Below, piece by piece: positions 1-34,723 of a DNA stretch of 64,000 nucleotides. Source of the stretch: Acutalibacter sp. 1XD8-36 (GTDB lineage Bacteria > Bacillota > Clostridia > Oscillospirales > Acutalibacteraceae); contig NZ_QZDU01000009.1 of NCBI RefSeq assembly GCF_009917525.1, positions 1 to 64,000 on the forward strand. Reading direction: 5' to 3'. The translations under genes and the position numbers were made by a program. The notes under the pieces are model-generated. The model saw only the letters and a program-made list of their open reading frames with translations. It had not been told where the DNA came from and did not search any database. The stretch's first letter is position 1, and every line of letters starts with the position of its first letter.

Positions 1-83
1 TCTTAAATTTTAGATTCTCGTACGGCTCTCTTTTGCCGCCGAGTGGAAGTTATTTATATACTGTAATACCGAGAACGCGGGCA

Positions 84-118
84 TAAAAAGACCGCTCCAG
101 GCGATTACCTGAAGCGGC
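84..118 (-). terminator. Rho-independent terminator of the uvr operon
   Basis: Arms 92-101 and 108-117 pair over 10 bp with one G-U pair and a 6-nt loop. On the minus strand the stem is followed by a run of U (plus-strand A at 85-89). It lies 24 nt after the stop of the last minus-strand gene, so it probably ends the long radC-uvrB-uvrA transcript. Bases 1-83 beyond it show no gene I can support. Confidence 0.8.
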
Positions 119-140
119 AGCAAAGAAGCTTATATAAAAT

Positions 141-923
141 TTAAGCCGGTCTTACAGCAAAATGCAAAGGGAGCCCCACCCTTCCGTCCGTTCCGCTGAC
201 ACAGGGCTCACATCCCGCCAGCCATGAATACTCCGGCAGGCGCGACATCAAGTTCCGAAGCATACACACCAGCATAGGGTGCAGCGCTCGGTCCTGCTCG
301 CTGTGCATCACGTAGCTGCGCCGGAGCTTCTTCTCGAGCGCAACGCGGTGCTGAGCTATCTCCGGCAGGGCCAGCTCCATTGGCATTTCCGATAGGCAGA
401 GCCAGAAATACCAGAGGGGAAACCAGGGTCTCCTTTTCTCGTTTGTATGACGATTATAGTTCTCGATTCGGCTCCTTATCCATTCTGTGTCCTCAGGGGA
501 GGCGGTGCATAAAAATCTCAGCACTATAAGCGAGGTGTCGAAACATTCGCCTACACCGTCGTCATCCCAGCCGAAGCAGGTGGTTTTCAGGCGGCGCAGA
601 GTCGCGTCGCGCATGAGCATAACCTGAGGGTTGCTGGGGGCCAGCAGGCAGAGCAGGCGCAGTATCTCCAGCTCGTACATGTTGCCGGAAAAAATTTTTG
701 TCTTGGGGGTCTGTCCCATCAGGCTGCGGAGCTTCACCTCCTGGGGCGGTATGTAAAATAGCGGGTACAGTGCTCTCCTGCCGGCTGGGGTTACAGCTTT
801 AGTAGGAGCCGCAGACAGTAGCTCTGCAGCGATAGCCGCTTTCTCCCCACTTGAAATCGATTCTCCCTTTATCAGCCTGTAGTCGGTTTCCACTGTGAGC
901 CTGTAAATGCTTTTCTTTTCCAT
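141..923 (-). CDS. Uncharacterised 260-aa protein, last gene of the uvr operon
   Basis: I do not recognise the family. The protein looks cytosolic and mainly helical, with no signal peptide or membrane segment. It is rich in Leu, Arg and Trp and has several Cys in the middle (around the stretch with Trp-Asp-Asp-Asp) and near the C terminus. The start is supported by a GGAGGT site on the minus strand 7-8 nt upstream. It follows the GyrI-like gene after 56 nt, the largest gap in the cluster. A TATAAT sequence sits in that gap (950-955 on the minus strand) without a convincing -35, so a weak promoter of its own is possible. The terminator at 84-118 follows it. The coding call is firm; the function is unknown. 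Confidence 0.75.
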   Translation of the reverse strand: MEKKSIYRLTVETDYRLIKGESISSGEKAAIAAELLSAAPTKAVTPAGRRALYPLFYIPPQEVKLRSLMGQTPKTKIFSGNMYELEILRLLCLLAPSNPQVMLMRDATLRRLKTTCFGWDDDGVGECFDTSLIVLRFLCTASPEDTEWIRSRIENYNRHTNEKRRPWFPLWYFWLCLSEMPMELALPEIAQHRVALEKKLRRSYVMHSEQDRALHPMLVCMLRNLMSRLPEYSWLAGCEPCVSGTDGRVGLPLHFAVRPA

Positions 924-979
924 AAGTTACACCTCCATAAACAAACTAAATTATATTCGACAAGTTAGTCCAACTCTTT

Positions 980-1618
980 TTAACATTCACGCCTCTTTAT
1001 GGGGTGCCGTATAACCGTCTTCCACCTCTCCGGCGAAGCTTTACGGGGGTCGCTCAAATATATCTCATGGTGCCGCCTGGTATCGTTTAGGTCATTCTCA
1101 TAGCCGTTTTTAACGATATATGCGTCCATAAGCGCCACAGTCTCAGGCTCGCTGTCATATGGCCCAACATGGAGCATTTGCACACACAGTCCCTCGTCCA
1201 GCGCAAGGAGATATGCCTGGGAGCAGTCGAGCTTTTTCTTTTTCTCTGCGGCAGAAACAGCCCAGGCGAAATCGTTCTCCCCCACAAAGTCCGGCAGGCG
1301 TATCACCGAAGTCCAGGAGAAGGAGGACTTATTTGAATAATCTACACCCTTAATGCCTGGCTGATACCAAAATCCCTCCAGCGGGGGGACAACGTATTCA
1401 TAAAATCCAGGTATTTTGTAGTCTGATTTATAGCTCATTTTAACGGTATACGCAACAGCATACAGCACATTCAGTGCGCGCTGATATTCGCCGCCCTCTG
1501 TATTGGGGTCGCCACAACCGTCTATGGCTATAAAATTCATTTGAGGGACGGTCACGATTTGGGGAGAGGCTTTGGGTGCATAAAGTTCCTTCTGTTCCTT
1601 TTTGAAGTCAAAAGCCAT
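980..1618 (-). CDS. GyrI-like small-molecule-binding domain protein
   Basis: A 212-aa stand-alone protein of the GyrI/SOUL-like effector-binding superfamily, in the subfamily opening with a Tyr-Ala-Pro-Lys stretch and a Phe-Ile-Ala-Ile-Asp-Gly-Cys-Gly-Asp-Pro-Asn motif near residues 29-39. Relatives bind drugs or other hydrophobic ligands, and GyrI itself inhibits gyrase. No DNA-binding domain is attached. The start has a strong AAGGAGG site. It follows the ICMT-like gene by 19 nt and is probably co-transcribed from the LexA-controlled promoter at 10.8 kb. The family call is fairly sure; the ligand is unknown. The AraC protein at 37.2-38.2 kb carries a C-terminal domain of the same superfamily. 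Confidence 0.8.
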   Translation of the reverse strand: MAFDFKKEQKELYAPKASPQIVTVPQMNFIAIDGCGDPNTEGGEYQRALNVLYAVAYTVKMSYKSDYKIPGFYEYVVPPLEGFWYQPGIKGVDYSNKSSFSWTSVIRLPDFVGENDFAWAVSAAEKKKKLDCSQAYLLALDEGLCVQMLHVGPYDSEPETVALMDAYIVKNGYENDLNDTRRHHEIYLSDPRKASPERWKTVIRHPIKRREC

Positions 1619-1637
1619 GGTTTTCCTCCTTAAATTT

Positions 1638-2150
1638 CTAAAAATACCTTCGGACCTGCTTCATATAGTCCAGATAATCCTGACCGAAACGCTGTATGCA
1701 GCTGCGCTCCTCAGCCCGGATTATCCAGTGTGCTGATATCTGAAAGCACAGGAGCAGCGCCAGCAGGAGCAGGGAAGCAGTCATAGCCGCACAGCCCAGG
1801 AACACCAGGAAGTAGGACATGTACATAGGGTTGCGGGAATAGCGGTACGCTCCCCGGAGGTTAATGCCGTTTTCGTCCGGGGTGCAGAAGCCGGCCACTG
1901 AGGCCGCAAGCAGTACGCTTCCGGCGCCATACAGCGCGGTGCCGCCAAGGAGCAGCGGCCCGCCTGTGAATTGCAGAAAGAATAGGGCTATGATAAGCGC
2001 GGCATTGGATAGTTGGTACACCCAATAGGCCGGTATTTCTGCGCCCGTAACTGGCGCAAAAGCCGCCGCTCGGGCCAGGGCTGGCCTGCTCAGCAGGGCC
2101 ATCAGCCCGAAGCGCAGCAGAAAGAAGGGTATGAGAAGCATCGCCGCCAT
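1638..2150 (-). CDS. ICMT/PEMT-like integral membrane methyltransferase
   Basis: A 170-aa membrane protein with about four hydrophobic helices. Its C-terminal half has the isoprenylcysteine carboxyl methyltransferase / phospholipid methyltransferase signature: Gly-Ala-Tyr-Arg-Tyr-Ser-Arg-Asn-Pro-Met-Tyr, then a hydrophobic pair of helices and Glu-Glu with a Tyr-Xaa-Xaa-Tyr-Xaa-Xaa-Xaa-Val-Arg-Arg-Tyr end. Such proteins use SAM to methylate small or lipid-linked substrates; the bacterial substrate is usually unknown. The ATG is one base after the uvrA stop with only a weak Shine-Dalgarno, which suggests translational coupling to uvrA. A second in-frame ATG lies three codons downstream. Confidence 0.8.
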   Translation of the reverse strand: MAAMLLIPFFLLRFGLMALLSRPALARAAAFAPVTGAEIPAYWVYQLSNAALIIALFFLQFTGGPLLLGGTALYGAGSVLLAASVAGFCTPDENGINLRGAYRYSRNPMYMSYFLVFLGCAAMTASLLLLALLLCFQISAHWIIRAEERSCIQRFGQDYLDYMKQVRRYF

Positions 2151-2151
2151 T

Positions 2152-4980
2152 TTAAACGCCCAAAAGGGGCCTTAAATATTGCCCGGTATAGCTCCCGTCT
2201 ACCAGCGAGACCTCCTCCGGCGTACCCTCAGCCACTATGGTGCCGCCGCGGTTGCCCCCCTCCGGGCCCAGGTCGATAATATGGTCGGCGGTCTTTATCA
2301 AATCAAGGTTATGCTCAATGACGACCACAGAGTTGCCCTTGTCCACCAGCTGCTGGAGGACCTCTATGAGCTTGTGCACGTCTGCAATGTGCAGGCCGGT
2401 GGTGGGCTCATCCAGGATATAGATGGTCTTGCCGGTTGGGCGGCGGGAGAGCTCTGTCGCAAGCTTTACACGCTGTGCCTCGCCTCCTGAGAGGGTGGTT
2501 GCAGGCTGGCCTATCTTCACATAGCCCAGCCCTACGTCGTGGAGAGTCTGCAGCTTCCGGGCAAGCCGCGGCAGGTCCCTGAAGAAGTCCACTCCCTCCT
2601 CAACGGTCATCTCCAGCACGTCGTATATGCTCTTGCCCTTATATTTTACCTCTAAGGTCTCGCGGTTGTACCTGTGGCCCTTACATACCTCACAGGGCAC
2701 GTACACATCCGGCAGGAAGTGCATCTCTATGCGGATTATGCCATCGCCCTGGCAGGCCTCGCAGCGCCCACCCTTCACGTTAAAGCTGAACCGCCCAGGC
2801 CCGAAGCCCCGCAGCTTGGCCTCCTGGGTGCTGGCATACAGGTCCCTTATGTCGTTAAAGAGCCCGGTATAGGTGGCGGGGTTTGAGCGGGGGGTGCGGC
2901 CTATAGGCGATTGGTCTATCTGTATCACCTTGTCCAGGTGCTCAAGGCCATTTATCTCTTTGTGGGCCCCGGGGAACGTATGGGCGCGGTTTAGCTCTGA
3001 AGCAAGCTTTTTGAAAAGTATCTCATTTATAAGCGAGGATTTACCCGACCCGGACACTCCTGTAATGCACACCAGCTCGCCAAGGGGCAGGCTCACTGTC
3101 ACATCCCTGAGATTGTTCTGGCTGGCACCGACTATCTCAAGGAATTTTCCGTTGCCCTGGCGCCGGGTACCGGGTATCTCAACCTTTTTCTTTCCGCTGA
3201 GATACTGGCCGGTAACGGATTCCTTGCACCTCATAATCCCCTTCACCGGCCCGGAATATATTACATTGCCGCCGTGTACTCCTGCCCCCGGGCCGATGTC
3301 AACAATATAGTCGGCCTCGCGCATGGTCTCCTCGTCGTGCTCCACAACTATCACCGTGTTGCCAAGGTCCCGAAGGCGCTTTAAGGTGCCGAGGAGCTTG
3401 CTGTTGTCCCGCTGGTGCAGTCCAATGCTGGGCTCGTCCAGAATATACAGGACACCCATCAGGGAGGAGCCTATCTGCGTGGCAAGGCGTATGCGCTGGC
3501 TCTCGCCGCCGGAGAGGGTGCCGGAGGACCGGGAGAGGGTAAGGTACTCAAGGCCGACGCTCTGCAAAAATCCCAGCCGGGATTTTATCTCCTTTACAAT
3601 GGGGGCGGCTATAAGCTTCTCACGCTGGGTAAGCTCCAGAGCCTGCACAAACTCCAGGGCCTCCGTAACGGACTTGTCGCAGAAGTCGGCAATATTGACC
3701 CCGCCCACAGTTACCGCTAGGCTCTCCGGGGAAAGGCGCTTGCCGTGGCACTCGTCGCAGGGGACGGCATTCATATAGGTCTCTATCTCGGCCTTTATCC
3801 AGTTGGAGGAGGTCTCCTTATACCGGCGCTCCAGGTTGTTGATAACCCCCTCAAAGGCCGCTTTATAAGAACTCCCCTTGCCGTACTCGCCCATGCGGGT
3901 CAGCTTTATCTGCTCACCCTTTGTGCCGTACAGAAGTATATCCACTATCTCCTTTGGCAGCTCCCCAATAGGGGTGTCAAGGGAAAATTTGTAGTGCTCG
4001 GAAAGGCCCTGCATGTACATGGTGGCGATAGTGCTGCCCTCCATGGCCCAGCCGCTGGCCTTGAGCCCGCCCTTGCGTATGGAGAGCTTTTTGTCGGGGA
4101 TTATCAGCGCCGGGTCGATTCGCATGAAAACTCCAAGGCCGGTACATTTTTTACAGGCCCCGAAGGGATTATTGAAGGAAAACATCCTGGGGGTGAGCTC
4201 GTCCACGCTGACGCCGTGCTCAGGGCAGGCGTAGTTCTGGGAGAAGGTGATATCCTCGCCGTCTATTACGTTCACTATCACCATTCCCCCGGTAAGCCCT
4301 GAGGCCACTTCAATGGAGTCCGCAAGGCGGGAGCGGATATCCTCATGGACAACCAGGCGGTCCACCACTATCTCGATATTGTGCTTTTGATTCTTGTTAA
4401 GCTGCATGGGCTCGCCCAGGTCATAGAGAAGGCCGTCCACCCTTGCACGCACGAAGCCGCCCCTTCTGGCGGCGTCGAACTCCTTCACATGCTCGCCCTT
4501 TCGCCCGCGCACCACCGGGGCCAGCACCTGCAGCTTTGTCTTCTCAGGCAACGCCAGCACCTGGTCCACAATCTGGTCGATGGTCTGCTGCTTAATCTCC
4601 CTGCCGCAGATGGGGCAGTGGGGGATGCCTATTCTGGCGTACAAAAGCCGCAGGTAGTCGTATATCTCCGTCACCGTGCCCACAGTGGAGCGGGGGTTTT
4701 TGGAGGTGGTCTTCTGGTCGATGGAAATGGCCGGGGACAGGCCGTCTATCTTGTCCACATCCGGCTTCTCCATCTGCCCTAAGAACATTCTCGCGTAGGA
4801 CGAGAGGCTCTCCACGTACCGCCGCTGGCCCTCAGCGTAAATGGTGTCAAAGGCCAGGGAGGACTTTCCCGACCCGGACAGGCCTGTGAGGACCACCAGC
4901 TTGTCCCGGGGGATAGTTACGTCTATGTTTTTCAGGTTGTGCTCCCGGGCGCCGAAAACTTCTATTTTGTCAAGGCTCAT
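2152..4980 (-). CDS. uvrA: UvrABC excinuclease subunit A
   Basis: A full-length UvrA (942 aa), the damage-sensing ABC ATPase of nucleotide excision repair. It forms a dimer and loads UvrB at lesions. Two ATPase modules are seen: Walker A at about residues 33-41 (GLSGSGKSS) and again near 640, with LSGGE signatures near 487 and 828. Zinc-binding Cys pairs occur in the first module and in the conserved CEACQGDG...CEVCKGH finger near 740-765. The start has a GGAGGAAG site. It lies 25 nt after the nitroreductase gene and is downstream of uvrB in the same transcription unit, whose promoter carries a LexA box. uvrA and uvrB are here separated by four unrelated genes. Confidence 0.98.
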
Positions 4981-5005
4981 CTTTTTTCTTCCTCCAATTC
5001 ATCTA

Positions 5006-5539
5006 TTAGTCGTTCCCGAATCCATTAAACCACGCCCGTTTCTCAAAGGCCAGCTTCTTCGGCCCTGCTCCCGGTTCCCGGGCAGCCTTTCCCACAGGCA
5101 GCAGGCACACTATGCGGTACTCCTCCGGCACGTCCAGAATCTCAGCGAGCTTTAAGTCTATCCTGTCCAGGTCCGTGATATGCCCCTCATACCAGCAGCT
5201 CTCATATCCCAGGGCTTTTATTGCCAGCAGCATGTTCTCGATAGCCGCCGAGTAGTCCTGCACGCTGTAGCACCGGTCCCTATAGGCAATTATCTCCCGG
5301 GCGAGCACCAATATGGCGGCAGGGGCGGTCTCGGCTATAGGCGGATTTATGGCCGCCTTGAGCTTTCGGAGCAGCTCCGGGTCGTCCACAGCGATAAGGC
5401 TTGTGGTCTGTTTGTTGCACCCCGAGGGCGCTGCCAGCCCCGCCTCCATTATACTTCGCAAATCCTCCCGGGGGACGGGAGTGTTCTCGTAGGGGCCGCG
5501 GTAGCTTCTGCGGCTCTGTATCAGCTCAAGAATGTCCAT
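5006..5539 (-). CDS. Nitroreductase-family FMN protein
   Basis: A 177-aa flavoprotein of the nitroreductase superfamily. The N-terminal SRRSYR motif (residues 9-14) contacts the FMN phosphate in this family, and the mid-protein stretch with Tyr-Ser-Val-Gln-Asp-Tyr-Ser-Ala-Ala-Ile-Glu-Asn-Met-Leu and GYESCWYEG matches the usual helix and strand. These enzymes reduce nitro compounds, quinones or flavins with NAD(P)H, usually as homodimers in the cytosol. The substrate cannot be read from the sequence. It starts 2 nt after the GrpB-fusion stop and lies 25 nt ahead of uvrA, so it is part of the repair operon. Confidence 0.88.
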   Translation of the reverse strand: MDILELIQSRRSYRGPYENTPVPREDLRSIMEAGLAAPSGCNKQTTSLIAVDDPELLRKLKAAINPPIAETAPAAILVLAREIIAYRDRCYSVQDYSAAIENMLLAIKALGYESCWYEGHITDLDRIDLKLAEILDVPEEYRIVCLLPVGKAAREPGAGPKKLAFEKRAWFNGFGND

Positions 5540-5541
5540 TT

Positions 5542-6594
5542 TTATATCTTCCTTTCCCTTATTCTACCTCTGATGTCCGCAAATCGGAGCTCTGCCAATC
5601 TTTGCAGCAGCGCCATCTCAACCGTACCGGGAGCTATGAACCGCAGGGCAGTGCGGCACACATCATCAAACTTCCTGCAAAACACAGTTTTTTCTGTACC
5701 ACCGGGGCAGGAGCCGCAATGTCCGCAGACATCCACGTGTTTCCAGCAGAGCTCCTTTTCTCCCTGGGATAAGGGCGCATCCTCATACCATGTGGAGCCG
5801 CTGTCGTCGGTCCAGACTGTTATTGGGGCAAGCGCTGCCTCGTCCCCTGTTCCATTGATAAGCAGATAAAATACAGGCTCTCCGAAGTAGAGTGCCGCCC
5901 AGTAATACTGCCCAGCCCAATAGCCGCCAGCCCTCTCGAAAGCGGCTCCTTCCATGCGCAGGAAAGCCAGAAATTGCAGCACTCTCTCCCGGGCCTCCTC
6001 AGAAAAGGTCTCACTGACAAGCGTTTCCGGGGAAATATAGCGTCCCCGGTACTCCTTTTTCGCCGTCTGGGTATGCTCCAGTACAAACGCTGTCTTCTGC
6101 CGGGTATATTCGTCCCTGTCATGCTCATATTGCTTCCATAGCTCCAGCTTCAGCCCCTCATACTCCTTTGCTATATCCGGGTGCTCATTGAGATAGTCTC
6201 TAAAATACAGCTCGTCATGGTCCCCCATGAGCCGCAGGTGCAGGTGGAACACCCGCTGGGCAAATCCCTCGGGCGTGTAGCCCTTGTTGAAGTCAACACG
6301 ACTTCCGCCCTGAGACGTGCAGATATACCCCTCCGCTTTCAGCGCACCTGCCGCGTTGTCCAGCGCCGCCATATTCGGGGTCTCTATCAGAATGTCAATA
6401 ATGGGCTTTGCCCATATGCCCTTAATGGCAGTGCTGCCCACATGGTGCAGCAGGGTGCCGGGAGGGAGTATGCCACGCAGCACCCGCATTTTATCCTTGT
6501 ACCAGTCTGCCCAGCAGTCCTGATGCTCAGTCAAGAATATGGGGAACAGCTCCCACAGCTCCTCCAGGGGCATCTCACTAAGCGGTTTTCCCAT
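5542..6594 (-). CDS. GrpB (UPF0157) domain fused to a Cys-rich clostridial domain
   Basis: A 350-aa protein. Residues about 15-170 are a GrpB/UPF0157 domain of the nucleotidyltransferase fold: a histidine-valine-glycine-serine-threonine-alanine core, a Lys-Pro-Ile-Ile-Asp-Ile-Leu strand with the acidic residues, and Phe-His-Leu-His-Leu-Arg. Residues about 190-350 form a second domain with an FERAGGYW-like stretch, a Trp-Thr-Asp-Asp-Ser-Gly strand and a Cys cluster (HVDVCGHCGSCPGG followed by two more Cys) that could bind metal. I chose the ATG at 6594 because a GAGGGG site precedes it and it lies 2 nt after the GNAT stop; a longer reading to 6651 would overlap that gene. The biochemical role of either half is not established. 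Confidence 0.8.
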   Translation of the reverse strand: MGKPLSEMPLEELWELFPIFLTEHQDCWADWYKDKMRVLRGILPPGTLLHHVGSTAIKGIWAKPIIDILIETPNMAALDNAAGALKAEGYICTSQGGSRVDFNKGYTPEGFAQRVFHLHLRLMGDHDELYFRDYLNEHPDIAKEYEGLKLELWKQYEHDRDEYTRQKTAFVLEHTQTAKKEYRGRYISPETLVSETFSEEARERVLQFLAFLRMEGAAFERAGGYWAGQYYWAALYFGEPVFYLLINGTGDEAALAPITVWTDDSGSTWYEDAPLSQGEKELCWKHVDVCGHCGSCPGGTEKTVFCRKFDDVCRTALRFIAPGTVEMALLQRLAELRFADIRGRIRERKI

Positions 6595-6596
6595 AG

Positions 6597-7361
6597 TTAA
6601 TCCCCTCTTTTTCTGGCGGATACCGCCACCCACGCCGGGGCGAAGCCACATTGGCAGGCTATGTTCTGCGAATGTATATTGCTAAGGCTTGTCCCGTAAA
6701 AAGGCACGGCCCCACGCTTCTGGACATCATGGCAGAGCCCCCGCACCAGCAGCGTCCCCAGCCCGCGCCCCCGGTACTCCGGCAGCACGTCTATGCCGGC
6801 CTGCCACATCCCGGGCGCGTCGGCAGAAGCTCCTGCCATCCCAACAATTTTCCCGCCGTCCACGGCGGCAAGCGCCAAAACATCCAGCCTTTTGGGGTTG
6901 TAATCATCCTGCAGGGCGTTGGGCCAGTCGGAGTTGGGGTATAGCTCCACAATCCCGCCGCGCTCAAGCAGCCGGAACTCAAGGCCCTCCGGCGGGCTCA
7001 CAGGGCCGAAGCTACCGGCCGGCAGATAGCAGTGGAAGGTTTGGGTAAGCTGCCAGCCGTAAGGCCCAAGTATTTTTGACAGCGTCAAGAGCCGCGGGAA
7101 TTCCAGCAGCCAGTGTGGGTGCTCCACGTCTTTTATCCACTCATCCAGCTCCGGGCGCAGGACTTCATCAGCCATAATGACCGCCGCGTGGCCCACAGCC
7201 GCCAGCTCAAAGAAGGGCATTTCGTCCGAGTAGACCCGCCGTCCCGGGTTCAGTGCCGGAGAGGTAAAGGTAATGCCGGGCCTTATAAAGTCCTCCAGCC
7301 TTGCGTTATAGTCTGTGGCAAGCTGTTTGATACCTAAGGACAAAGCCTCTCTTTTATTCAT
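6597..7361 (-). CDS. GNAT-family N-acetyltransferase
   Basis: A 254-aa protein whose C-terminal part (about 155-245) is a GNAT fold, with the acetyl-CoA loop visible as V-L-P-E-Y-R-G-R-G-L-G (Arg/Gln-x-x-Gly-x-Gly/Ala type) followed by a YGTSLSNIHSQNIACQCGF stretch typical of motif B. The N-terminal 130 residues are family-specific and probably shape the acceptor site. The acceptor is unknown. The start has a GGGGAT-rich site. It lies 22 nt after the HD-domain gene and 2 nt before the GrpB fusion. Confidence 0.85.
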   Translation of the reverse strand: MNKREALSLGIKQLATDYNARLEDFIRPGITFTSPALNPGRRVYSDEMPFFELAAVGHAAVIMADEVLRPELDEWIKDVEHPHWLLEFPRLLTLSKILGPYGWQLTQTFHCYLPAGSFGPVSPPEGLEFRLLERGGIVELYPNSDWPNALQDDYNPKRLDVLALAAVDGGKIVGMAGASADAPGMWQAGIDVLPEYRGRGLGTLLVRGLCHDVQKRGAVPFYGTSLSNIHSQNIACQCGFAPAWVAVSARKRGD

Positions 7362-7383
7362 GTATTTTATCCCCTTTCCCGAC

Positions 7384-8020
7384 TCACAGATATTTCCTGC
7401 ACCTCTCAGCCAGCTCCCCGGACTTTAGCCACTCCCTAAGGATGACAAGCCCACGCTCATTGCGGGGACAGGGCAGCCATAGGTGCAGATAGCCGCTCTC
7501 GCTGTACTTATCCTTTACATGTTCGATTGTCCGAAGGATATGCTCCTCGTCGCTCCACTGGGGCCAATGGGCTTTGCTGTACTCTATCATGCGGCGCACA
7601 ACCCGCTCTGGGTCCAGGTCACGGTCGGCCTCGCTGACAATGCGCCCATAGATATTCCGGGGAGGCTCCTGGCGGGAAGCCCGGTGGTCCTCCACGGCCT
7701 GGCGCATGACAAGCCGCTGCTCGGGGGTAAACCAGCGCTCCAGCTCCCTATCCTCCCACAGCCATTGCCCGGAGACGGCTTCATGGTGCTCCCGGCTGAC
7801 CCGGATACCCACGTCATGATAGGCAGCCACAGTATAGACCATGTTGGAGTCAACATCCAGCCCGTCCAGCAGGGCAAGGCTGTTTTCTAAAACTATCCGC
7901 ACATGTTCGGGCCCGTGGGCCGGAGTCATGGGCCTCATAAAGGGGCAGGATGTTCTGCTCAATATACTCCTGCAGCTCCGGGATGACTTCCCATACGCTT
8001 CTTCCTTCTGCCCTTTCCAC
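7384..8020 (-). pseudogene. HD-domain phosphohydrolase gene with a single-base frameshift
   Basis: The reading frame from the ATG at 7962 encodes an HD phosphohydrolase body (192 aa): His-Gly-Pro-Glu-His-Val, then Tyr-His-Asp-Val-Gly, then Glu-Ala-Asp-Arg-Asp for the metal ligands. The missing N terminus is encoded just upstream in another frame. A GTG at 8020 starts [12 protein letters not shown]..., continuing through ...LPLYEAHD up to about 7927. Removing one base near 7924 joins the frames as ...EAHD-P-A-HGPEHV, a normal HD N terminus, and the span is 637 nt (3n+1). The GTG shares its G with the uvrB stop TAG (TAGTG), showing translational coupling. This is either a real inactivating insertion or a sequencing error; I see no slippery site for programmed frameshifting. 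Confidence 0.75.
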
Positions 8021-10014
8021 TACCCCTTCCTCCTCCTTGGCAGGGGCGCGTGCCCCGCGCTCCCGGTCTCAAGTTCCTTTATCTTGTCCCTGAGGTAGGC
8101 CGCGTGCTCGAACTCCAAGAGCTTCGCCGCCGCCTTCATCTCCTTCTGATAACGCTCTATCAGCTCCCTGCGCTCGGCGGGGGTATAGTGCTTCTTTTTC
8201 TTTTTGCCGTCGTCCTTATGGGTGGAAATCTCAAGAATCTCAGCCACGTCTTTCTTGATGGTCTTGGGCACGACGCCGTGGTCAAGGTTATATTTCTCCT
8301 GTATGGCCCGCCTGCGCTCGGTCTCAGTTATGGCGTACTCCATGGAGGGCGTGACGCTGTCGGCGTACATTATCACCTGGCCTTCGGCGTTGCGGGCGGC
8401 GCGTCCGATGGTCTGTATCAGGCTCCTGCCGCTTCTCAGGAAGCCTTCTTTGTCCGCGTCCAGTATGGCGACCAGGGTGACCTCGGGCAAATCCAGGCCC
8501 TCCCTCAAAAGGTTTATGCCCACCAGCACATCGAACTCCCCAAGGCGCAAATCCCTTATTATCTCCATGCGCTCCACGGTGTCTATATCGTGGTGCATAT
8601 ACCTCACTTTTATGCCGTAATTCTCAAGATAACTTGTAAGGTCCTCAGCCATCTTCTTTGTCAGCGTGGTGACAAGTACCCTCTCCTGCTTCTCCACCCG
8701 CAGGTTTATCTCTGAGATAAGGTCGTCTATCTGCCCTTCGGTGGGCTTTACAGTTACCTTGGGGTCCAGGAGCCCTGTGGGCCTTATGACCTGCTCCACA
8801 ACCTGGGTGGACTTGTCCAGCTCAAGGTCTCCCGGAGTGGCGCTGACAAATATGGCCTGGTTTATATGCCCATAGAACTCATCAAAGTTCAGGGGCCGGT
8901 TGTCATAGGCAGAGGGCAGGCGGAAGCCGTAGTCCACCAGCATCTGTTTCCTGGCGTGGTCGCCGCCGAACATGCCCCGCACCTGGGGCAGGGTAACATG
9001 GCTCTCGTCTACGAACATAAGGTAGTCGTCAGGGAAATAGTCCAGCAGGGTGAAGGGGGCGCTGCCCGCCTCCCTGCCAGAGAGCACCCTGGAATAGTTC
9101 TCTATACCCTTGCAGAAGCCTATCTCCGAGAGCATCTCTATGTCGTGGCGCGTGCGCTCGCTGATACGCTGGGCCTCTATGAGCTTGCCCTGCTCCTTAA
9201 ACATGGCGGCCTGCTTCTCCATCTCATCATAGATGCTGGCGATGGCGGTCTTCATCTTGTCTCCCGGCACGATATAGTGGGAGGCCGGGTAAATCCCCAC
9301 GTGCTTCAGCTCGCCGGTGACCTCTCCGGTCAGCGGCAGGAACTCCCTTATCCGCTCTATCTCATCCCCAAAGAACTCTACCCGCACGGCCTTCTCGCTG
9401 GACTCGGCGGGGAATATCTCAACTACGTCCCCGCGGACCCGGAACTTGTTGCGTATAAAGTTTACGTCGTTGCGCTCATACTGGAGCTCAACCAGCTTTC
9501 TTAAAAGGTCGTCCCGGTTTTTCTCCATGCCCGGGCGCAGGGATATGACCATAGTTCTGTAGTCGATAGGGTCGCCGAGGCTGTATATGCACGAGACAGA
9601 GGCCACGATTATAACGTCCCTGCGCTCGGAAAGGGCGCAGGTGGCGCTGTGACGGAGCTTGTCTATCTCGTCATTTATTGCACTGTCCTTCTCAATATAG
9701 GTGTCCGTCTGTACAATATACGCCTCCGGCTGATAGTAGTCGTAGTAGGAGACGAAATATTCCACTGCGTTTTCGGGAAAGAACTCACGGAACTCCGAGC
9801 AGAGCTGCGCCGCCAGGGTCTTGTTATGGGCCAGTATCAGCGTGGGGCGGTTGAGCCGCGCTATCACGTTCGCCATAGTAAATGTCTTGCCCGAGCCGGT
9901 GACGCCCAGCAGGGTCTGCTCCTTCATTCCCGAGCTGACTCCCCGCACAAGCTGGTCTATGGCCTCCGGCTGGTCTCCGGTAGGCTGGAATTTGGATGAA
10001 AGCTTGAAGTCCAT
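8020..10014 (-). CDS. uvrB: UvrABC excinuclease subunit B
   Basis: UvrB of 664 aa, the DNA-damage-verifying helicase-like subunit that receives DNA from UvrA and recruits UvrC. Seen: Walker A GVTGSGKT (38-45), the tyrosine-rich beta-hairpin [10 protein letters not shown] (from about 92), the DESHV Walker B-like box near 338, helicase motif [11 protein letters not shown], and the C-terminal UVR coiled coil that contacts UvrC (about 618-650). The start has an AAAAGGAGG site. It lies 16 nt after radC under the LexA-box promoter. Its stop overlaps the GTG of the HD gene. Confidence 0.98.
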
Positions 10015-10030
10015 TTTCAGTGCCCTCCTT

Positions 10031-10774
10031 TTAGTTTCCGGCGCCCAGGCCGGCTTTTGCCAAGTAGTCTGTCAACTCCCTGGTTCCAGCTATCCCGCTG
10101 CGCCACTGGGCCAGGGCGTCGTCAGCCATGGCATGGAGTATTCCGCTCTCGGAGAAAGAGAAATACCCGCCGTCTGTCAGTATTATATGGTCTTTAAGCC
10201 GGACCTGTATGCAGTCCAGGGCCAGCACCAGGTGCTTGGTGGTCAGGATATCCTGCTTTGAGGGCTCGGCGCTACCGCTTATGTGGTTATGAGCCAATAT
10301 GAAGCTGTCGGCGTCGTAGTCTATACATAGGCGCACCAGCCTGCGCACATAGAGGGGCACCGCGTTTACCGCCCCTTCGCAGACGATACCCCTGTAGATG
10401 ACCCTGCTGCCGGTATCCAGCAGGACAGCGCCTACGGCCTCAACCCTCTGGCCGAGGAAAAGCGGCTGGAACAGCTCCACTGCCGTGCGCCTGTCCCCAA
10501 CCCTCTTTACACTGTCTGTCTCCTCGTCAAGGCAGGCCCGGGCCAGCTCCAAAGTCAGGCGCAGGTGCCTGGCAGTATCCGGATCCATGCCAGGTGCGGA
10601 GGCTATGGCTTCTTCGGGAGCAGATAGTATATTTTTGAGGCTCCCCCAGGTGTTCCACATAAACTGTGCGGCCTTTTCAGCCTGGTCACCGGGCATCCTG
10701 CCTTCCAGGACCTCCCTGAGCAGCTGTATCCTTCGGGTTTCTCTTGGGCCGGGCCTCTTCTTCCTTGCGGCCAT
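10031..10774 (-). CDS. radC: RadC/JAB-domain protein
   Basis: A 247-aa RadC-family protein. The N-terminal 85 residues are a helix-hairpin-helix-like region ([14 protein letters not shown]). The C-terminal MPN/JAB-like domain carries the metal motif His162-x-His164...Asp175 ([15 protein letters not shown]); the usual Pro after HNH is Ile here. The biochemical role of RadC is unsettled; family members are often in repair or mobile-element contexts. It is the first gene of the operon, with an AGAGGAGG site 8 nt before the ATG, and the promoter 30 nt further upstream contains a LexA box. This makes a DNA-damage role plausible here, which is inference from context. Confidence 0.93.
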
Positions 10775-10803
10775 GGGGTAGGCCTCCTCTCTGTAGTAAC
10801 AAT

Positions 10804-10832
10804 ATCATATCAAACGTATGTTTCTTTGTCAA
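10804..10832 (-). promoter_or_regulatory. Sigma-A promoter of the radC-uvrB-uvrA operon
   Basis: On the minus strand TTGACA (10832-10827) and TATGAT (10809-10804) are separated by exactly 17 nt. The LexA box at 10811-10824 lies wholly in the spacer, so LexA binding would block RNA polymerase. Confidence 0.85.
10811..10824. promoter_or_regulatory. LexA/DinR (SOS) box ahead of radC
   Basis: CAAACGTATGTTTC fits the Bacillus-type LexA consensus CGAACRNRYGTTYC at 13 of 14 positions (second base A instead of G). The identical 14-mer is found ahead of recA at 34710-34723. No lexA gene is in the window. Confidence 0.85.
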
Positions 10833-10875
10833 GCCCTATATCTTCTGTATTATAATCAAATATAAAGGGAAAAGC

Positions 10876-10918
10876 AACGCAATATTTCCTCAAAAAATTT
10901 TGGGAGAAATATTGCGTT
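10876..10918. repeat. 13-bp perfect inverted repeat in the radC / L,D-transpeptidase divergent region
   Basis: Arms 10876-10888 (AACGCAATATTTC) and 10906-10918 are perfect reverse complements with a 17-nt A/T-rich loop. No U run follows on either strand, so it is not an ordinary terminator. It lies upstream of both divergent promoters, where an operator for an unknown regulator would be expected. Confidence 0.7.
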
Positions 10919-10947
10919 CACATCTTCCATTTTTTATCGGTATAGAG

Positions 10948-10963
10948 TATAATTGTCTATAAT
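10948..10963 (+). promoter_or_regulatory. Putative -10 elements of the SLH/L,D-transpeptidase gene
   Basis: Two TATAAT hexamers (10948-10953 and 10958-10963) lie 33-48 nt before the ATG at 10996. Neither has a good -35 at 17 nt, so the exact promoter is unclear. Confidence 0.4.
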
Positions 10964-10995
10964 CATGTACTATATGTAAAAGGAGCAATGTACCT

Positions 10996-12807
10996 ATGAA
11001 TACCTCAAGCCCCCATATGACCCTTCGGCAGCTGATATCCGTGCTTCTGTGCTGCCTGCTGGTAACAGGCTGTATGGGCCTTACTGCCGTTGCGGACGAG
11101 ACCCCTGCCCGGCCAGAAGCAGAGACAGAGACCGCCGCTGGGAATACGGAAGAAGCGGAGCCGGACATGTATACGGCTGATAACGAGCCCGCTGTGGACG
11201 ACACTGAAGAACCGCCGGAGTGCGGTCTTGTTTCGGTGACTTTTGACTTTGGGGATTTTGGCATGGAAATCCAGTCCGTGCTCCCCGGTGAGAAGCCTGA
11301 GAGCGTTCCCGGCATTCCTGAGGAACACGCCTGGCAGGGATATGTTATTACCGGCTGGCTCAATGAGGTCGGCGAGCCGGCAGAGCCTGCTGAGACGGCT
11401 GTTTCCGATGATACCGTGTATACCGCGTGTCTTGAGCGCAGTGTGGCTGCCCTGCTTAACACGGACGAGCATAAGGCCTATATAAACGGCTGCTCCCCTG
11501 AGATTTTTAATCCCCAGGGAAGTCTGACCCGGGCAGAGGCGGCTACGCTGTTCAGCAACCTTCTGCGGATAAAGGACTTTGAGCATAGCGCCAGCTTTAA
11601 GGACGTGAAGCCCACCGACTGGTTTGCGGACTCTGTGGGAAGGGTGAACGCTCTGGGTATTGCCACCGGCTCTGCAGAGAGCGGCTTCCGCCCCAACGCC
11701 AAGATAACCCGGGCGGAATTTGTGCGCATGGCGGCGTCATGCGACAGCCTGGAGGAGGGGGACTGTCCGTTTACGGATGTGTCTGAAAAGAACTGGGCCA
11801 GGCCCTATATAGTGTCCGCATACGCTAAGGGCTGGATACACGGCGGCGCCGACGGCATGTTCCACCCCAATGATAATATCTCAAGAGCTCAGGCCGTTAC
11901 CATACTCAACAGTATGCTGGGCCGCCAGCCTGACGAAAACATCGAGGAGCTGGAGGGCACCAGGGAGTTCTGCGATGTGTTCCCGGGAAACTGGGCCTAT
12001 GGCAATATTATCGAGGCCTCTACGGACCATGAGTTTACCGGCACCGAGGAGGGCGGCGAGCAGTGGACAGACTATACCCGCTATGAGTCCACAGATAAGC
12101 GCGGGTGGCTTAGCCTGAACGGAACAAAATATTATATCGGTTCAGACGGAAAGTGCCTTAGGGGAGTGCAGACTATCGGCGGGGTAAAATACCGCTTTGA
12201 CTCCACCGGGGCTGCGGCTACCGGCTTCTTCAAGGACGGCAGCTGGACGCGGTATTATAAAAACGGCCTGATAGTTGAGGACATCTCGAATCTGGGCGTC
12301 GTCAAGGGGCCATACTATATCAAGGTCTATAAGCCCGCGAATTATCTGATTATTTTCGCAAAGGACAGCGCGGGAAACTATACGATACCTGTACGCTCCA
12401 TGCTGGTCTCCTGCGGCAATCCTACGCCCACCGGCAACTTCTATACCCCGGACCGCTACCGCTGGCTGGAGATGGTGGGGGGCAGCTGGGCCCAGTGGTG
12501 CACCCAGATTATGGGCAATTACCTGTTCCACTCGGTGCCCAACGACCTGAGGAATAATTATACCATGTGGTCCGGCGAGTTCAACAACCTGGGCACCACC
12601 AGGTCCCTTGGCTGCATCCGCCTCAACTGCGAGGACGCTAAATGGATATACGACAACTGCGCGCTGGGCACCCATGTATACATCTCCCCCAGCGAGACCT
12701 CCGGCCCCTTAAAGAAGCCCGCCGGGCTGAAGATTCCCTCCTGGCACACCTGGGACCCAACTGACCCCACGGCAAAATATCTTTGCAAACGGAACGGCTG
12801 CCATTGA
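10996..12807 (+). CDS. Secreted SLH-domain L,D-transpeptidase (YkuD family)
   Basis: A 603-aa exported protein. The signal peptide ends with V-T-G-C at residues 23-26, so it may be a lipoprotein. Next come an acidic linker, a short beta repeat resembling Listeria-Bacteroides repeats (about 75-150), three SLH motifs (about 155-320) that bind secondary wall polymers, a cell-wall-binding-type stretch with Gly-Trp-Leu and Tyr-Tyr-Ile-Gly-Ser-Asp-Gly (about 365-420), and a YkuD catalytic domain (about 435-565). L,D-transpeptidases cross-link peptidoglycan through a Cys. The putative catalytic pair here is His512 and Cys540, but the usual Ser-His-Gly-Cys is Ser-Leu-Gly-Cys. Start: AAGGAG 9 nt before the ATG; a second ATG is at codon 8. 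Confidence 0.88.
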   Translation: MNTSSPHMTLRQLISVLLCCLLVTGCMGLTAVADETPARPEAETETAAGNTEEAEPDMYTADNEPAVDDTEEPPECGLVSVTFDFGDFGMEIQSVLPGEKPESVPGIPEEHAWQGYVITGWLNEVGEPAEPAETAVSDDTVYTACLERSVAALLNTDEHKAYINGCSPEIFNPQGSLTRAEAATLFSNLLRIKDFEHSASFKDVKPTDWFADSVGRVNALGIATGSAESGFRPNAKITRAEFVRMAASCDSLEEGDCPFTDVSEKNWARPYIVSAYAKGWIHGGADGMFHPNDNISRAQAVTILNSMLGRQPDENIEELEGTREFCDVFPGNWAYGNIIEASTDHEFTGTEEGGEQWTDYTRYESTDKRGWLSLNGTKYYIGSDGKCLRGVQTIGGVKYRFDSTGAAATGFFKDGSWTRYYKNGLIVEDISNLGVVKGPYYIKVYKPANYLIIFAKDSAGNYTIPVRSMLVSCGNPTPTGNFYTPDRYRWLEMVGGSWAQWCTQIMGNYLFHSVPNDLRNNYTMWSGEFNNLGTTRSLGCIRLNCEDAKWIYDNCALGTHVYISPSETSGPLKKPAGLKIPSWHTWDPTDPTAKYLCKRNGCH

Positions 12808-15917: not shown

Positions 15918-18326
15918 ATGATGATAAAGTACAGGGTGCGGGAGGTAGCAAAGGACCTGAACCTCACCAATAAGGACGTAATAGATACGCTGGCGAAATA
16001 CTTCCCGGAGCCGAAGAAATATATGACGGCCCTGGAGGAAAAGGAGCTGGACATCGTCTTTGAGACATTCACCCAGGAGAGGAATCTGGCCAGCCTGGAT
16101 GAATATTTCGCCCAGAGGGAGCTGGGCCCTGAGCCCAAGGGGGAACAGGAGCCCGAGGCCTCCGGGAAAAAGCCGGCGGAGCCGAAGCCCGCGCCGGCTA
16201 AGGAGGGCGGAAAGAAGCAGGCTCAGCCTAAGGACAAGGAAGCCCCCAAGGGCCAGCCGGCCCCGGCGGCAGCAAAGCCCGCCGCAGAGCAGCAGGCGGG
16301 GCAGAAATCCCAGCAGAAGCCTGCCCAGCCGGTGCGCGAGCCCAAGGCGCCCACACGCCGGGTGGTGGATACCCGCTCAAGCAATGTGAATATTGACAAG
16401 TATAACGAGAAGTATGACCGCCTGGCGGACCAGAAGGTGAGCGCAAGGCAGGACAACGCCGTTACCAAGCAGAAGTTCACAAACAGGAACCAGCAGAGAA
16501 GGGGCCAGCAGCGGAGAGGCAAGCGGGAGACCGAGGCAGAGCGCCTGCGCCGCATAGCCATGGAGCGCAAGGCAAAGCATATCACCATCGAGGTGCCCGA
16601 CGAGATAAGCGTTGGGGAATTTGCCCTGCGCCTTAAAGTAGCAGCGCCCGAGGTGATAAAGAAGCTTATGGGCCTGGGGGTATTTGCCGCCATAAATGAT
16701 ACCATCGACTTCGACACCGCCGTGCTCATTGCCGACGAGTTCCACGCCAAGGTGGAAAAAGAGGTTGTTGTAACTATTGAGGAGCGTATTATAGACGACA
16801 GCGAGGACGACGAGGCCAACCTTGTGACCAGAGCCCCGGTGGTGGTAGTCATGGGCCACGTGGACCACGGCAAGACATCGATACTGGATGTGATACGCCA
16901 CTCCAACGTCACAGAGGGCGAGGCCGGAGGCATTACCCAGCATATCGGTGCTTATAGAGTCAAGGCGGGCGACAGGGACCTTACCTTCCTGGACACCCCG
17001 GGCCATGCGGCGTTTACCACCATGCGGGCCAGGGGGGCGCAGGTTACTGATATAGCCGTACTGGTCGTAGCTGCGGACGACGGCATTATGCCCCAGACCG
17101 TTGAGGCTATAAACCACGCCAAAGCGGCAGGGGTCAGCATTATAGTGGCTATAAACAAGATGGATAAGCTGGGCGCCAACCCGGACAGGGTCAAGGAACA
17201 GCTGACGGAGTACGAGCTGGTGCCTGAGGAGTGGGGCGGCGATACCCCCTGTATCCCGGTTTCCGCACACACAAAAGAGGGCATAAATGACCTGCTTGAG
17301 ATGATAACGCTTACCGCCGACATGATGGAGCTCAAGGCGAATCCCGACCGCGCCGCCAAGGGTACTGTAATAGAGGCAAGGCTTGACAAGGGCATGGGCC
17401 CCATCGCAACGGTGCTTGTGCAGAATGGTACGCTTCGCGCCGGGGATACTATAGTTGCCGGAGCCACAGTGGGCCGGGTGCGCTCTATGATGGACGATAA
17501 GGGCCGCAGGGTCACAGAGGCAGGGCCCTCGGTGCCTGTGGAGATAACCGGCCTTGGGGATGTGCCAGTAGGCGGCGACGTCTTTGACGCCGTTTCCGAC
17601 GAGCGCCTTGCCAGGGAGCTGGTGGAGCAGCGCCTGAACGACCAGAAGGAGGAGGCCTTCCGGGCCCAGACGAAGGTAACTCTCGACAACCTCTTTGAGC
17701 AGATGAGAGAGGGTGAGATGAAAGAGCTGAAGATAATCGTCAAGGCGGACGTGCAGGGCTCGGTGGAGGCCGTGCGCCAGTCGCTGGAGAAGCTCACAAA
17801 CGACGAGGTGCGTGTGCATATCATACACGGCGCTGTGGGCGCTGTGAGCGAGAGCGACGTTATGCTGGCAAACGCGTCAAATGCCATTATAGTAGGCTTC
17901 AACGTGCGCCCCGACCCCGTGGCCGAGGAGAACGCCAAGCGGGACGGCGTAGATATGCGGCTGTACAGGATAATCTACGACTGCATTGAGGAAATAGAAA
18001 GCGCCATGAAGGGTATGCTCGCGCCAAAGTTCCGGGAGGTGGCACTGGGCCGGGCCGAGTGCCGGGAGACCTACAAGATATCCAATGTGGGCATCGTCAT
18101 CGGCGGACATGTCACCGGCGGCAAGATAACCCGCAACGCCCTTGTCCGGGTGGTCCGCGACGGCATTATAGTTGCCGACGACAAAATCGCCTCCCTGCGC
18201 CGTTTCAAGGACGACGTAAAGGAGGTCGCGGACGGCTACGACTGCGGCATCACCCTGGAGAAGTTTATAGATATCAAGCAGGGAGACGTACTGGAGGCCT
18301 ACGAAATGGAGGAATACAGAGACTAA
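15918..18326 (+). CDS. infB: Translation initiation factor IF-2
   Basis: An 802-aa IF-2, the GTPase that brings initiator tRNA to the 30S subunit. Seen: an N-terminal IF2_N helical domain, a low-complexity Pro/Ala/Lys/Gln linker (about 75-160), a basic patch, a second IF2_N domain near 215-265, the G domain with G1 GHVDHGKT (about 312-319), G3 DTPGH and G4 NKMD, then domains II-IV binding fMet-tRNA. The ORF opens with two ATGs 4 nt after ylxQ. Directly after the stop lies a dispersed hairpin repeat (18327-18403). Confidence 0.97.
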
Positions 18327-33429: not shown

Positions 33430-34625
33430 CAGTCGTCCACCGTAATGTCAAGGCTGGTATCAGACACAGCGGGCTTCTTGGCCGGAGCCTTCTTATCCTC
33501 TGGGGCGGGCTCGGCAGGAGCCTTGTCCACGACTTCGGCGGGAGCGGTCTCATCCTTATCGTCTTTATTGTCCTTGTCCGCCCCCTTGCCCGCCTTCTGG
33601 GAATAGAGCTTGCCTACATTCTCCCGCACAGCGGCCTCAATGCTCTCGGCTACCTCCGGGTGTGCGGAAAGGAAGTCCTTCACCTTCTCCCGGCCCTGTC
33701 CTATGCGCTCGCCGTTGTAGGAGAACCATGAGCCGCTTTTCTGTATGATTTCCAGCTGTACGCCTATATCCACCAGCTCGCCCATTCTGGAGATACCCTT
33801 GCCGTAGAGCACGTCAAATTCAGCCGTCCTAAAGGGAGGGGCGACCTTATTCTTTACAACCTTCGCCTTTGTGTGTGACCCAATAAGCTCCGTGCCGTTC
33901 TTTATAACCTCACCCTTACGCACGTCTATGCGCACAGAGGAATAGAACTTCATGGCCCGCCCGCCAGGGGTGACCTCCGGGCTGCCGTACATAACGCCCA
34001 CCTTCTCGCGCAGCTGGTTTATGAATATGGCAACGCAGTTGGACTTTGAGATGGCTCCCGCCAGCTTCCTTAAGGCCTGGCTCATAAGCCTTGCTTGGAG
34101 CCCCACGTGGGAGTCGCCCATCTCTCCCTCTATCTCCTGCTTGGGCACAAGGGCCGCCACTGAGTCCACCACTATCACGTCGATGGCGTTGGAGCGTATC
34201 AGGGCCTCGGCAATCTCCAGGGCCTGCTCGCCTGTGTCCGGCTGGGAGACCAGAAGGTCGTCGACCTTGACGCCCAGGGCCGCGGCGTATACCGGGTCCA
34301 GGGCGTGCTCCACGTCTATAAAGGCCGCGTTGCCGCCTATCTTCTGCCCCTCGGCTACACAGTGCAGGGCAAGGGTAGTCTTGCCCGAGGACTCCGGGCC
34401 GTATATCTCGACTATCCTTCCCCTGGGCAGCCCGCCCACGCCCAGGGCTAGGTCTAAAGATAGGGAGCCTGTGGAGATGGACTCGATGTTTAGGGCGGAG
34501 TTCTGCCCCAGCTTCATCACCGCGCCCTCGCCAAAGGATTTCTTTATCTGGGCCAGAGCTGTATCCAGGGCCTTCTGCCGTTCGTCACCTTTATTGGCGC
34601 TTGCCGCCTGTTTCTTTTCCGCCAT
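33429..34625 (-). CDS. recA: Recombinase RecA
   Basis: A 398-aa RecA: Walker [10 protein letters not shown], Walker [12 protein letters not shown]1/L2 DNA loops (including the [21 protein letters not shown] region), and a long Lys/Asp/Pro/Ala-rich C-terminal tail ending acidic. It drives strand exchange and LexA self-cleavage. I chose the ATG at 34625 because CAGGAGGAA lies 9 nt upstream; the frame is open for ten more codons to another ATG at 34655. It is transcribed from the promoter at 34662-34690. Confidence 0.97.
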
Positions 34626-34709: not shown

Positions 34710-34723
34710 CAAACGTATGTTTC
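34710..34723. promoter_or_regulatory. LexA/DinR (SOS) box between recA and the isomerase gene
   Basis: CAAACGTATGTTTC, identical over all 14 nt to the box in the radC promoter. It sits between two divergent promoters, 2 nt from the -35 of the isomerase promoter and 19 nt from the -35 of the recA promoter. Confidence 0.85.

Follow-up and report, generated by a model that had tools for sequence, protein, structure and literature searches.

In a 64,000-nucleotide stretch of DNA from Acutalibacter sp. 1XD8-36 (Clostridia; own genome 3.2 Mb), referred to here as the window, ten consecutive open reading frames (ORFs), all on the minus strand between 141 and 10774, comprise radC, uvrB, uvrA and a set of further genes, called cargo below. 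Judging from the sequence and its relatives, it is fairly probable that these genes form a LexA-repressed radC–uvrB–uvrA operon serving as a cargo bay of exchangeable, probably detoxifying enzymes. An earlier annotation made from the letters of this DNA (the sequence-only reading) had described the run of ten genes, a promoter TTGACA-17-TATGAT with a LexA-type box in its spacer, and a hairpin terminator at the operon end; the ORF calls bear out the first, both promoter and box are confirmed, and the third is confirmed as a terminator-like hairpin (118–91). The features, in the direction of transcription, are as follows.

10804..10832, minus strand: promoter of the sigma-A type, TTGACA-17-TATGAT (11 of 12 matches, TG before the −10)
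10811..10824, minus strand: LexA-type box GAAACATACGTTTG in the promoter spacer (identical 14-mer before recA)
10031..10774, minus strand: radC (RadC-like JAB domain; PF04002, 1.4e-29; under the NCBIfam RadC cut-offs)
8020..10014, minus strand: uvrB (NF003673, over cut-off)
7384..7962, minus strand: cargo, HD-domain protein (PF01966 exactly at cut-off; N-terminal frame shifted relative to L173)
6597..7361, minus strand: cargo, GNAT acetyltransferase (GNAT_A; PF00583, 4e-11)
5542..6651, minus strand: cargo, GrpB domain (PF04229, 1e-41, residues 37–195) plus a part of ~165 amino acids (aa) without a Pfam match
5006..5539, minus strand: cargo, nitroreductase-family protein (PF00881, 9.3e-27)
2152..4980, minus strand: uvrA (NF001503, over cut-off)
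1638..2150, minus strand: cargo, PEMT/ICMT-like methyltransferase (PF04191, 1.3e-10; ICMT under its cut-off)
980..1618, minus strand: cargo, GyrI-like protein, candidate cyclopropanoid cyclopropyl hydrolase (CCH; 3B49/lin2189, 8.2e-66)
141..923, minus strand: cargo, mostly helical 260-aa protein adjoining the GyrI-like gene (model with a predicted local distance difference test score, pLDDT, of 64)
91..118, minus strand: terminator-like hairpin (12 pairs and a T-run)

The uvrB–uvrA junction across genomes

UvrB and UvrA of the window are complete and co-oriented, each scoring over its equivalog cut-off, and uvrA is not directly 3′ of uvrB, with 3.0 kb of cargo intervening. UvrB was found in 26 of 29 genomes of the genus (own included; the three without a uvrB match were dropped), and the loci of the 25 relatives were read, showing a uvrB–uvrA distance of 369–4656 nucleotides (nt) in 24 of them and of 55 nt in the lone tight relative, L184. 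For the other genera of the family, 39 loci, mostly the most similar, were chosen from 137 genomes with a uvrB match, and seven were dropped because uvrA lay outside the stretch read. In 30 of 31 of these loci the distance does not exceed 98 nt, the remaining one (L138) having 436 nt without a recognised gene, and the 32nd, L109 of a close genus, carries a GNAT gene between uvrB and uvrA. The other junctions in the genus are less variable (radC–uvrB up to 471 nt), except the one behind uvrA, in samples that are small. Together, these comparisons indicate that the variable cargo bay flanked by uvrB and uvrA is real.

The sequence-only reading had named a gene order unique to this single genome as grounds for refutation. 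Taken literally, this holds for the genus relatives read, not one of the 25 having all ten genes in the same order. The idea nevertheless survives, since the relatives share the architecture of box, uvrB, cargo and uvrA and differ in the cargo list. As side observations, radC heads the same operon in many distant genus members (L176–L196) although their RadC proteins are 36–45% identical to that of the window, with their UvrB at 82–94%, and uvrA of L192 (oriented 6545–9303) lies in two pieces in different frames, reflecting a sequence error or a broken gene.

The filled junction may also be read as passive hitch-hiking, in which it would be a permissive landing place near conserved recombination arms and ordinary small-molecule enzymes there would derive no benefit from SOS control. 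This alternative is favoured by what other families of the order show: 40 loci were taken from 53 genomes with a match, three were dropped for having no downstream uvrA, and 8 of the remaining 37 also hold ORFs of at least 100 aa in the junction, unrelated to the genus cargo. Four of these junction proteins match the flavodoxin/ferredoxin, aldo-keto reductase, aminoacyl-tRNA editing and L-PSP (RidA) families. The occupancy within the family argues the other way, the junction being filled in 24 of 25 genus relatives vs 1 of 32 loci of other genera.

Exchange, repertoire and selection of the cargo

In uvrA of L173, the closest relative of the window, the third-position difference from the window is 0.05–0.20 in the 5′ part and then jumps to 0.31–0.48. 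The 3′ part of the L173 gene differs by 0.00–0.07 from that of L175, which belongs to another species, whereas their 5′ parts differ by 0.18–0.41. The L175-like stretch of L173 (96–100% identity where aligned) spans the GyrI-like gene and extends into the 260-aa gene. Beyond it, across the final 400 nt present in the window, L173 returns to 0.86–0.98 identity with the window; left of the exchange, L173 and the window share 95.5% identity across 4031 nt. Such a pattern is the mark of two crossovers that exchanged about 3 kb, one of the arms being uvrA. The exchange moved downstream cargo, and exchange of junction cargo was not caught among the relatives compared.

Genes occupying the junction fall into the following homology groups: four kinds of GNAT, GrpB (either alone or fused to the additional part), nitroreductase, HD, peptidase S51, nucleoside deoxyribosyltransferase-like, SnoaL-like, Cys-rich CPCC, FMN reductase and DUF3795-like (below cut-off) proteins, together with one family-less ORF in L191. 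In L178 (oriented 8806–10221), a single ORF joins deoxyribosyltransferase-like, GNAT and S51 domains, which other loci encode as individual cargo genes. The distribution of 16 cargo families over a 32-tip UvrB+UvrA tree requires no fewer than 44 changes in presence. GrpB, nitroreductase, GyrI and the 260-aa gene track this tree better than shuffles, and GNAT_A, SnoaL, S51 and HD fit it no better than shuffles.

The diversity and partial decay of the cargo would suit hitch-hiking, while its orientation, tight spacing and upkeep would not. All 69 cargo segments from 27 loci run with the operon and none is antisense, the cargo families having been defined from plus-strand ORFs, so that inverted genes without relatives could go unseen. 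The ratio of nonsynonymous to synonymous substitution rates (dN/dS) is 0.08–0.15 for the nitroreductase (five pairs) and 0.07–0.12 for GyrI (three of four pairs, one being saturated), and most of the compared cargo is under purifying selection, weaker than that on uvrB and uvrA. We therefore regard hitch-hiking as an unlikely account of the junction.

The LexA-type box

The textbook box CGAACN4GTTYG has no exact match in the own genome, the box of the operon being a lineage variant; the lineage form was therefore taken from the recA, lexA and operon sites. The 14-mer of the operon, GAAACATACGTTTG, recurs identically in the same window at 34710..34723 (minus strand), upstream of recA (33621–34583, minus strand), and a near copy, AAACATTCGTTTT, precedes lexA of the own genome, whose product scores 199.7 bits against TIGR00498 (cut-off 110.95). 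A pattern spanning the three sites, RAACATWCGTTYK, has exact matches at those three alone in 3.2 Mb, a specificity that is only descriptive because the pattern was built from the same recA, lexA and operon sites. Two more LexA-family matches, under the cut-off, lie on one contig (L002 and L003; G000:C62) and are possibly phage-type repressors.

A more independent test than RAACATWCGTTYK is given by RAACAWAYGTTYG, although this pattern too was derived from boxes noticed earlier upstream of radC in some genus members. Its exact sites number 46, spread over 23 of the 29 genus genomes. Of these sites, 30 had loci and were inspected; of the other 16, only those near uvrB were placed. Ten of the inspected sites precede radC–uvrB, seven lexA, six recA and four a rarA-like gene (27 of 30 in all), with three unassigned. 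Fourteen of the 46 sites fall 790–1151 nt upstream of uvrB. In 14 of the 25 relatives the box before radC lies inside the promoter spacer, and its position between TTGAC(A/G) and the −10 is constant in the window and these 14, one of which (L186) deviates at the final base of the box. The commonest form before radC is GAACAAATGTTTG (7 of 14). The locus of one further relative, L179, is truncated by the end of its contig.

The boxes before rarA-like genes lie 72–96 nt upstream in L200, L220, L222 and L224, which suggests that rarA is part of the SOS regulon in some genus members. The rarA-like label is a reading of the gene, and the one of the four that was searched matches AAA, AAA_assoc_2 and RuvB_N. 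Exact boxes also occur in L206, L214 and L223 near genes without an SOS-regulon assignment.

SOS control of the operon, as claimed by the sequence-only reading, is strongly supported in sequence because the box recurs before recA, lexA and, in 14 of 25 relatives, radC; its expression side we infer. On this basis, the operon is very probably LexA-controlled.

Transcription of the unit

The intergenic gaps, in ascending coordinates, are 56, 19, 1, 25 and 2 nt, an overlap of 55 nt, and 22, 57 and 16 nt; the overlap, between the GNAT gene and the GrpB fusion, becomes a 2-nt gap if the GrpB fusion begins at Met20. Such short spacing bears on a reading in which transcription is uncoupled, LexA controlling radC–uvrB alone and internal promoters or terminators expressing the cargo separately. 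In 1–12000, the minus strand has four further promoter-like sites, each with 9 or 10 of 12 matches; three of these weak sites lie inside the operon (8585, 3140 and 482), all in coding sequence. Across both strands of this region, promoter-like sites are somewhat in excess of shuffles (13 vs 6.8, sd 2.7), and there are 15 terminator-like sites vs 10.7 (sd 3.2) in shuffles. The uncoupled reading could draw on the three internal sites, on the promoter-like excess and on the part of the genus in which the best box-like site precedes uvrB rather than radC. The low scores of the internal sites, their coding location and the short gaps speak against it, as do the remaining minus-strand terminator-like sites, which have 5 or 6 pairs vs 12 at the operon end. 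Uncoupling is thus quite improbable, and a single transcript of the unit appears likely given the short gaps and the absence of strong signals within it.

Gene assignments

Most names given in the sequence-only reading stand, the RadC, UvrB, UvrA, HD, GNAT, GrpB, nitroreductase and GyrI-like assignments agreeing with Pfam; its methylase is a PEMT match, with ICMT below cut-off. One protein of no recognised family had also been claimed, and the 260-aa product indeed has zero matches in Pfam, NCBIfam and PADLOC models. The PADLOC models of anti-phage defence systems, compared with eight of the ten operon proteins (all except UvrA and UvrB), gave 0 matches. At its 5′ end, over ~25 codons (window 7890–8020), the HD gene is in a different frame from that of L173, which may stem from decay, from a newly arisen start or from an error in the sequence. 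The divergent neighbour at 10996–12807 resembles an S-layer-homology and L,D-transpeptidase protein, as read from its sequence without a family search.

The GyrI-like protein

The clearest cargo assignment is the GyrI-like protein, which shares 50.7% identity with lin2189 (102 of 201 aligned residues). According to the excerpt consulted of PMC5684135, lin2189 hydrolyses yatakemycin and CC-1065, and E157, E185, W85 and Y187 are essential or critical. All four residues are retained in the window protein, as are Y46, Y54 and Y58, making it a good candidate for a genotoxin hydrolase. Among the 29 genus genomes, 19 have GyrI relatives and 11 have the 260-aa gene, and the two genes are adjacent in all five uvr loci with GyrI. 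In one of these five, L176 (oriented 16708–18120), both genes lie 4.4 kb behind uvrA, in swapped order and on the opposite strand.

These data could also be taken to mean that the whole operon responds specifically to DNA alkylators of the cyclopropane type, with the GyrI-like hydrolase destroying the drug and UvrAB clearing the adducts, both damage-switched. The identity to lin2189 and the conserved catalytic glutamates and critical aromatic residues favour such a response. However, the GyrI gene is found in 5 of 26 uvr loci (window included), the substrate range is unreadable from sequence, and no link between the remaining cargo and such compounds is known, so that this narrower reading is possible but rather doubtful.

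Proposed mechanism and its weight

In the favoured reading, that of a LexA-repressed cargo bay, LexA on 10811–10824, between the −35 and −10, would block RNA polymerase, and DNA damage would activate RecA and lead to LexA self-cleavage. One transcript of ~10.7 kb would then yield RadC, UvrB, the junction enzymes, UvrA and the downstream enzymes. Cargo would be gained, lost and swapped between species, partly through homologous recombination within conserved uvrA, and would in this way be placed under damage control with no need for its own promoter. The cargo would most likely modify or destroy DNA-reactive or toxic small molecules, the clearest case being the GyrI-like protein, whose candidate activity is the hydrolysis of DNA alkylators that bear a cyclopropane. 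A unit combining inducible repair with detoxification is a plausible hypothesis.

Several points weigh against this reading. The reversed control of RAACAWAYGTTYG gives 31 genus sites vs 46, making the raw counts weak alone, and the weight therefore rests on the site locations, not their number. In the own genome, RAACATWCGTTYK with one mismatch gives 17 sites vs 43 for the reversed control, and none of the 14 one-mismatch sites examined for it adjoins a rarA relative. Ten of the 25 relatives have no box before radC or uvrB, showing imperfect sites 58–78 nt 5′ of uvrB (eight with 11 of 13 matches and two with 10). As to the cargo, GyrI relatives occur in only 5 of the 26 uvr loci read, the HD gene has a dN/dS of 0.35 in one of two pairs, and some cargo is decaying, as seen in the HD start in the window, an HD fragment in L175 and a split GNAT in L173. 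The shared purpose claimed by the sequence-only reading gains a genotoxin-hydrolase candidate in the GyrI-like protein, but for HD, GNAT, GrpB, nitroreductase and PEMT/ICMT only enzyme classes are nameable, without an assigned substrate. LexA binding, co-transcription, induction and detoxification are all things that we infer.

If true, the favoured reading would tie nucleotide excision repair to exchangeable chemical-neutralising enzymes by one damage switch in Clostridia, and the content of the uvrB–uvrA junction would become a readable list of candidate genotoxin-detoxifying enzymes. It would also provide a clean case of horizontal exchange within a core repair operon, driven by homology and not by a mobile element.

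Comparison with known systems

The nearest counterpart is uvrBA of Clostridioides difficile, for which the part of PMC4234289 consulted reports that LexA bound the uvrBA promoter region and that the recA operator used in the binding work contains GAACAAATGTTTG. Both systems, as far as that excerpt goes, place uvrB and then uvrA behind a LexA operator. In the window, radC leads and the cargo varies between species, with four cargo genes splitting uvrB and uvrA and three following uvrA. LexA-controlled uvrBA is thus already known, and no cargo-bay use of it came up in the open-licence literature searched, where titles and abstracts gave no description of variable genes between uvrB and uvrA under LexA.

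In Escherichia coli, sbmC (gyrI) is located apart from the uvr genes. It resembles the gene in the window as an SOS-controlled GyrI-domain gene that protects against DNA-damaging agents, as stated in the excerpt of PMC5684135. The same excerpt describes SbmC as lacking the acidic pair and the cage and showing no yatakemycin hydrolysis (PMC5684135), in which it differs from the candidate here. The cyclopropanoid cyclopropyl hydrolases lin2189 and YtkR7 share the GyrI-only architecture, and the key residues are kept in the window protein, with W99 of lin2189 replaced by F and F154 by Y. Unlike those of lin2189 and YtkR7, the window gene sits in a LexA-boxed uvr operon, and its product is a hydrolase candidate only.

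The rulAB genes of Pseudomonas form an SOS-type repair operon. The available part of PMC4542609 suggests rulAB as an insertion hotspot, with integron-like elements integrating site-specifically into rulB. Here, in contrast, single genes lie between uvrB and uvrA.

Integron cassette arrays consist of variable, co-oriented small genes behind a single promoter. The cargo shares these traits, being variable, co-oriented small genes probably served by one promoter, and SOS control of integron cassette recombination is mentioned in the excerpt of PMC4234289. Integrons differ in that the gaps of 1–57 nt here leave little space for recombination sites; the cargo borders are unmarked among the repeats listed (20 of 41 direct and 25 of 37 inverted), and no search aimed at an integrase was made. 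As a tentative idea, which we hold to be less probable than the cargo-bay reading by itself, the uvr operon could be an integrase-free counterpart of the integron, in which uvrB and uvrA act as homology arms and SOS-raised, RecA-dependent recombination swaps detoxification genes among species and immediately subjects them to damage control.

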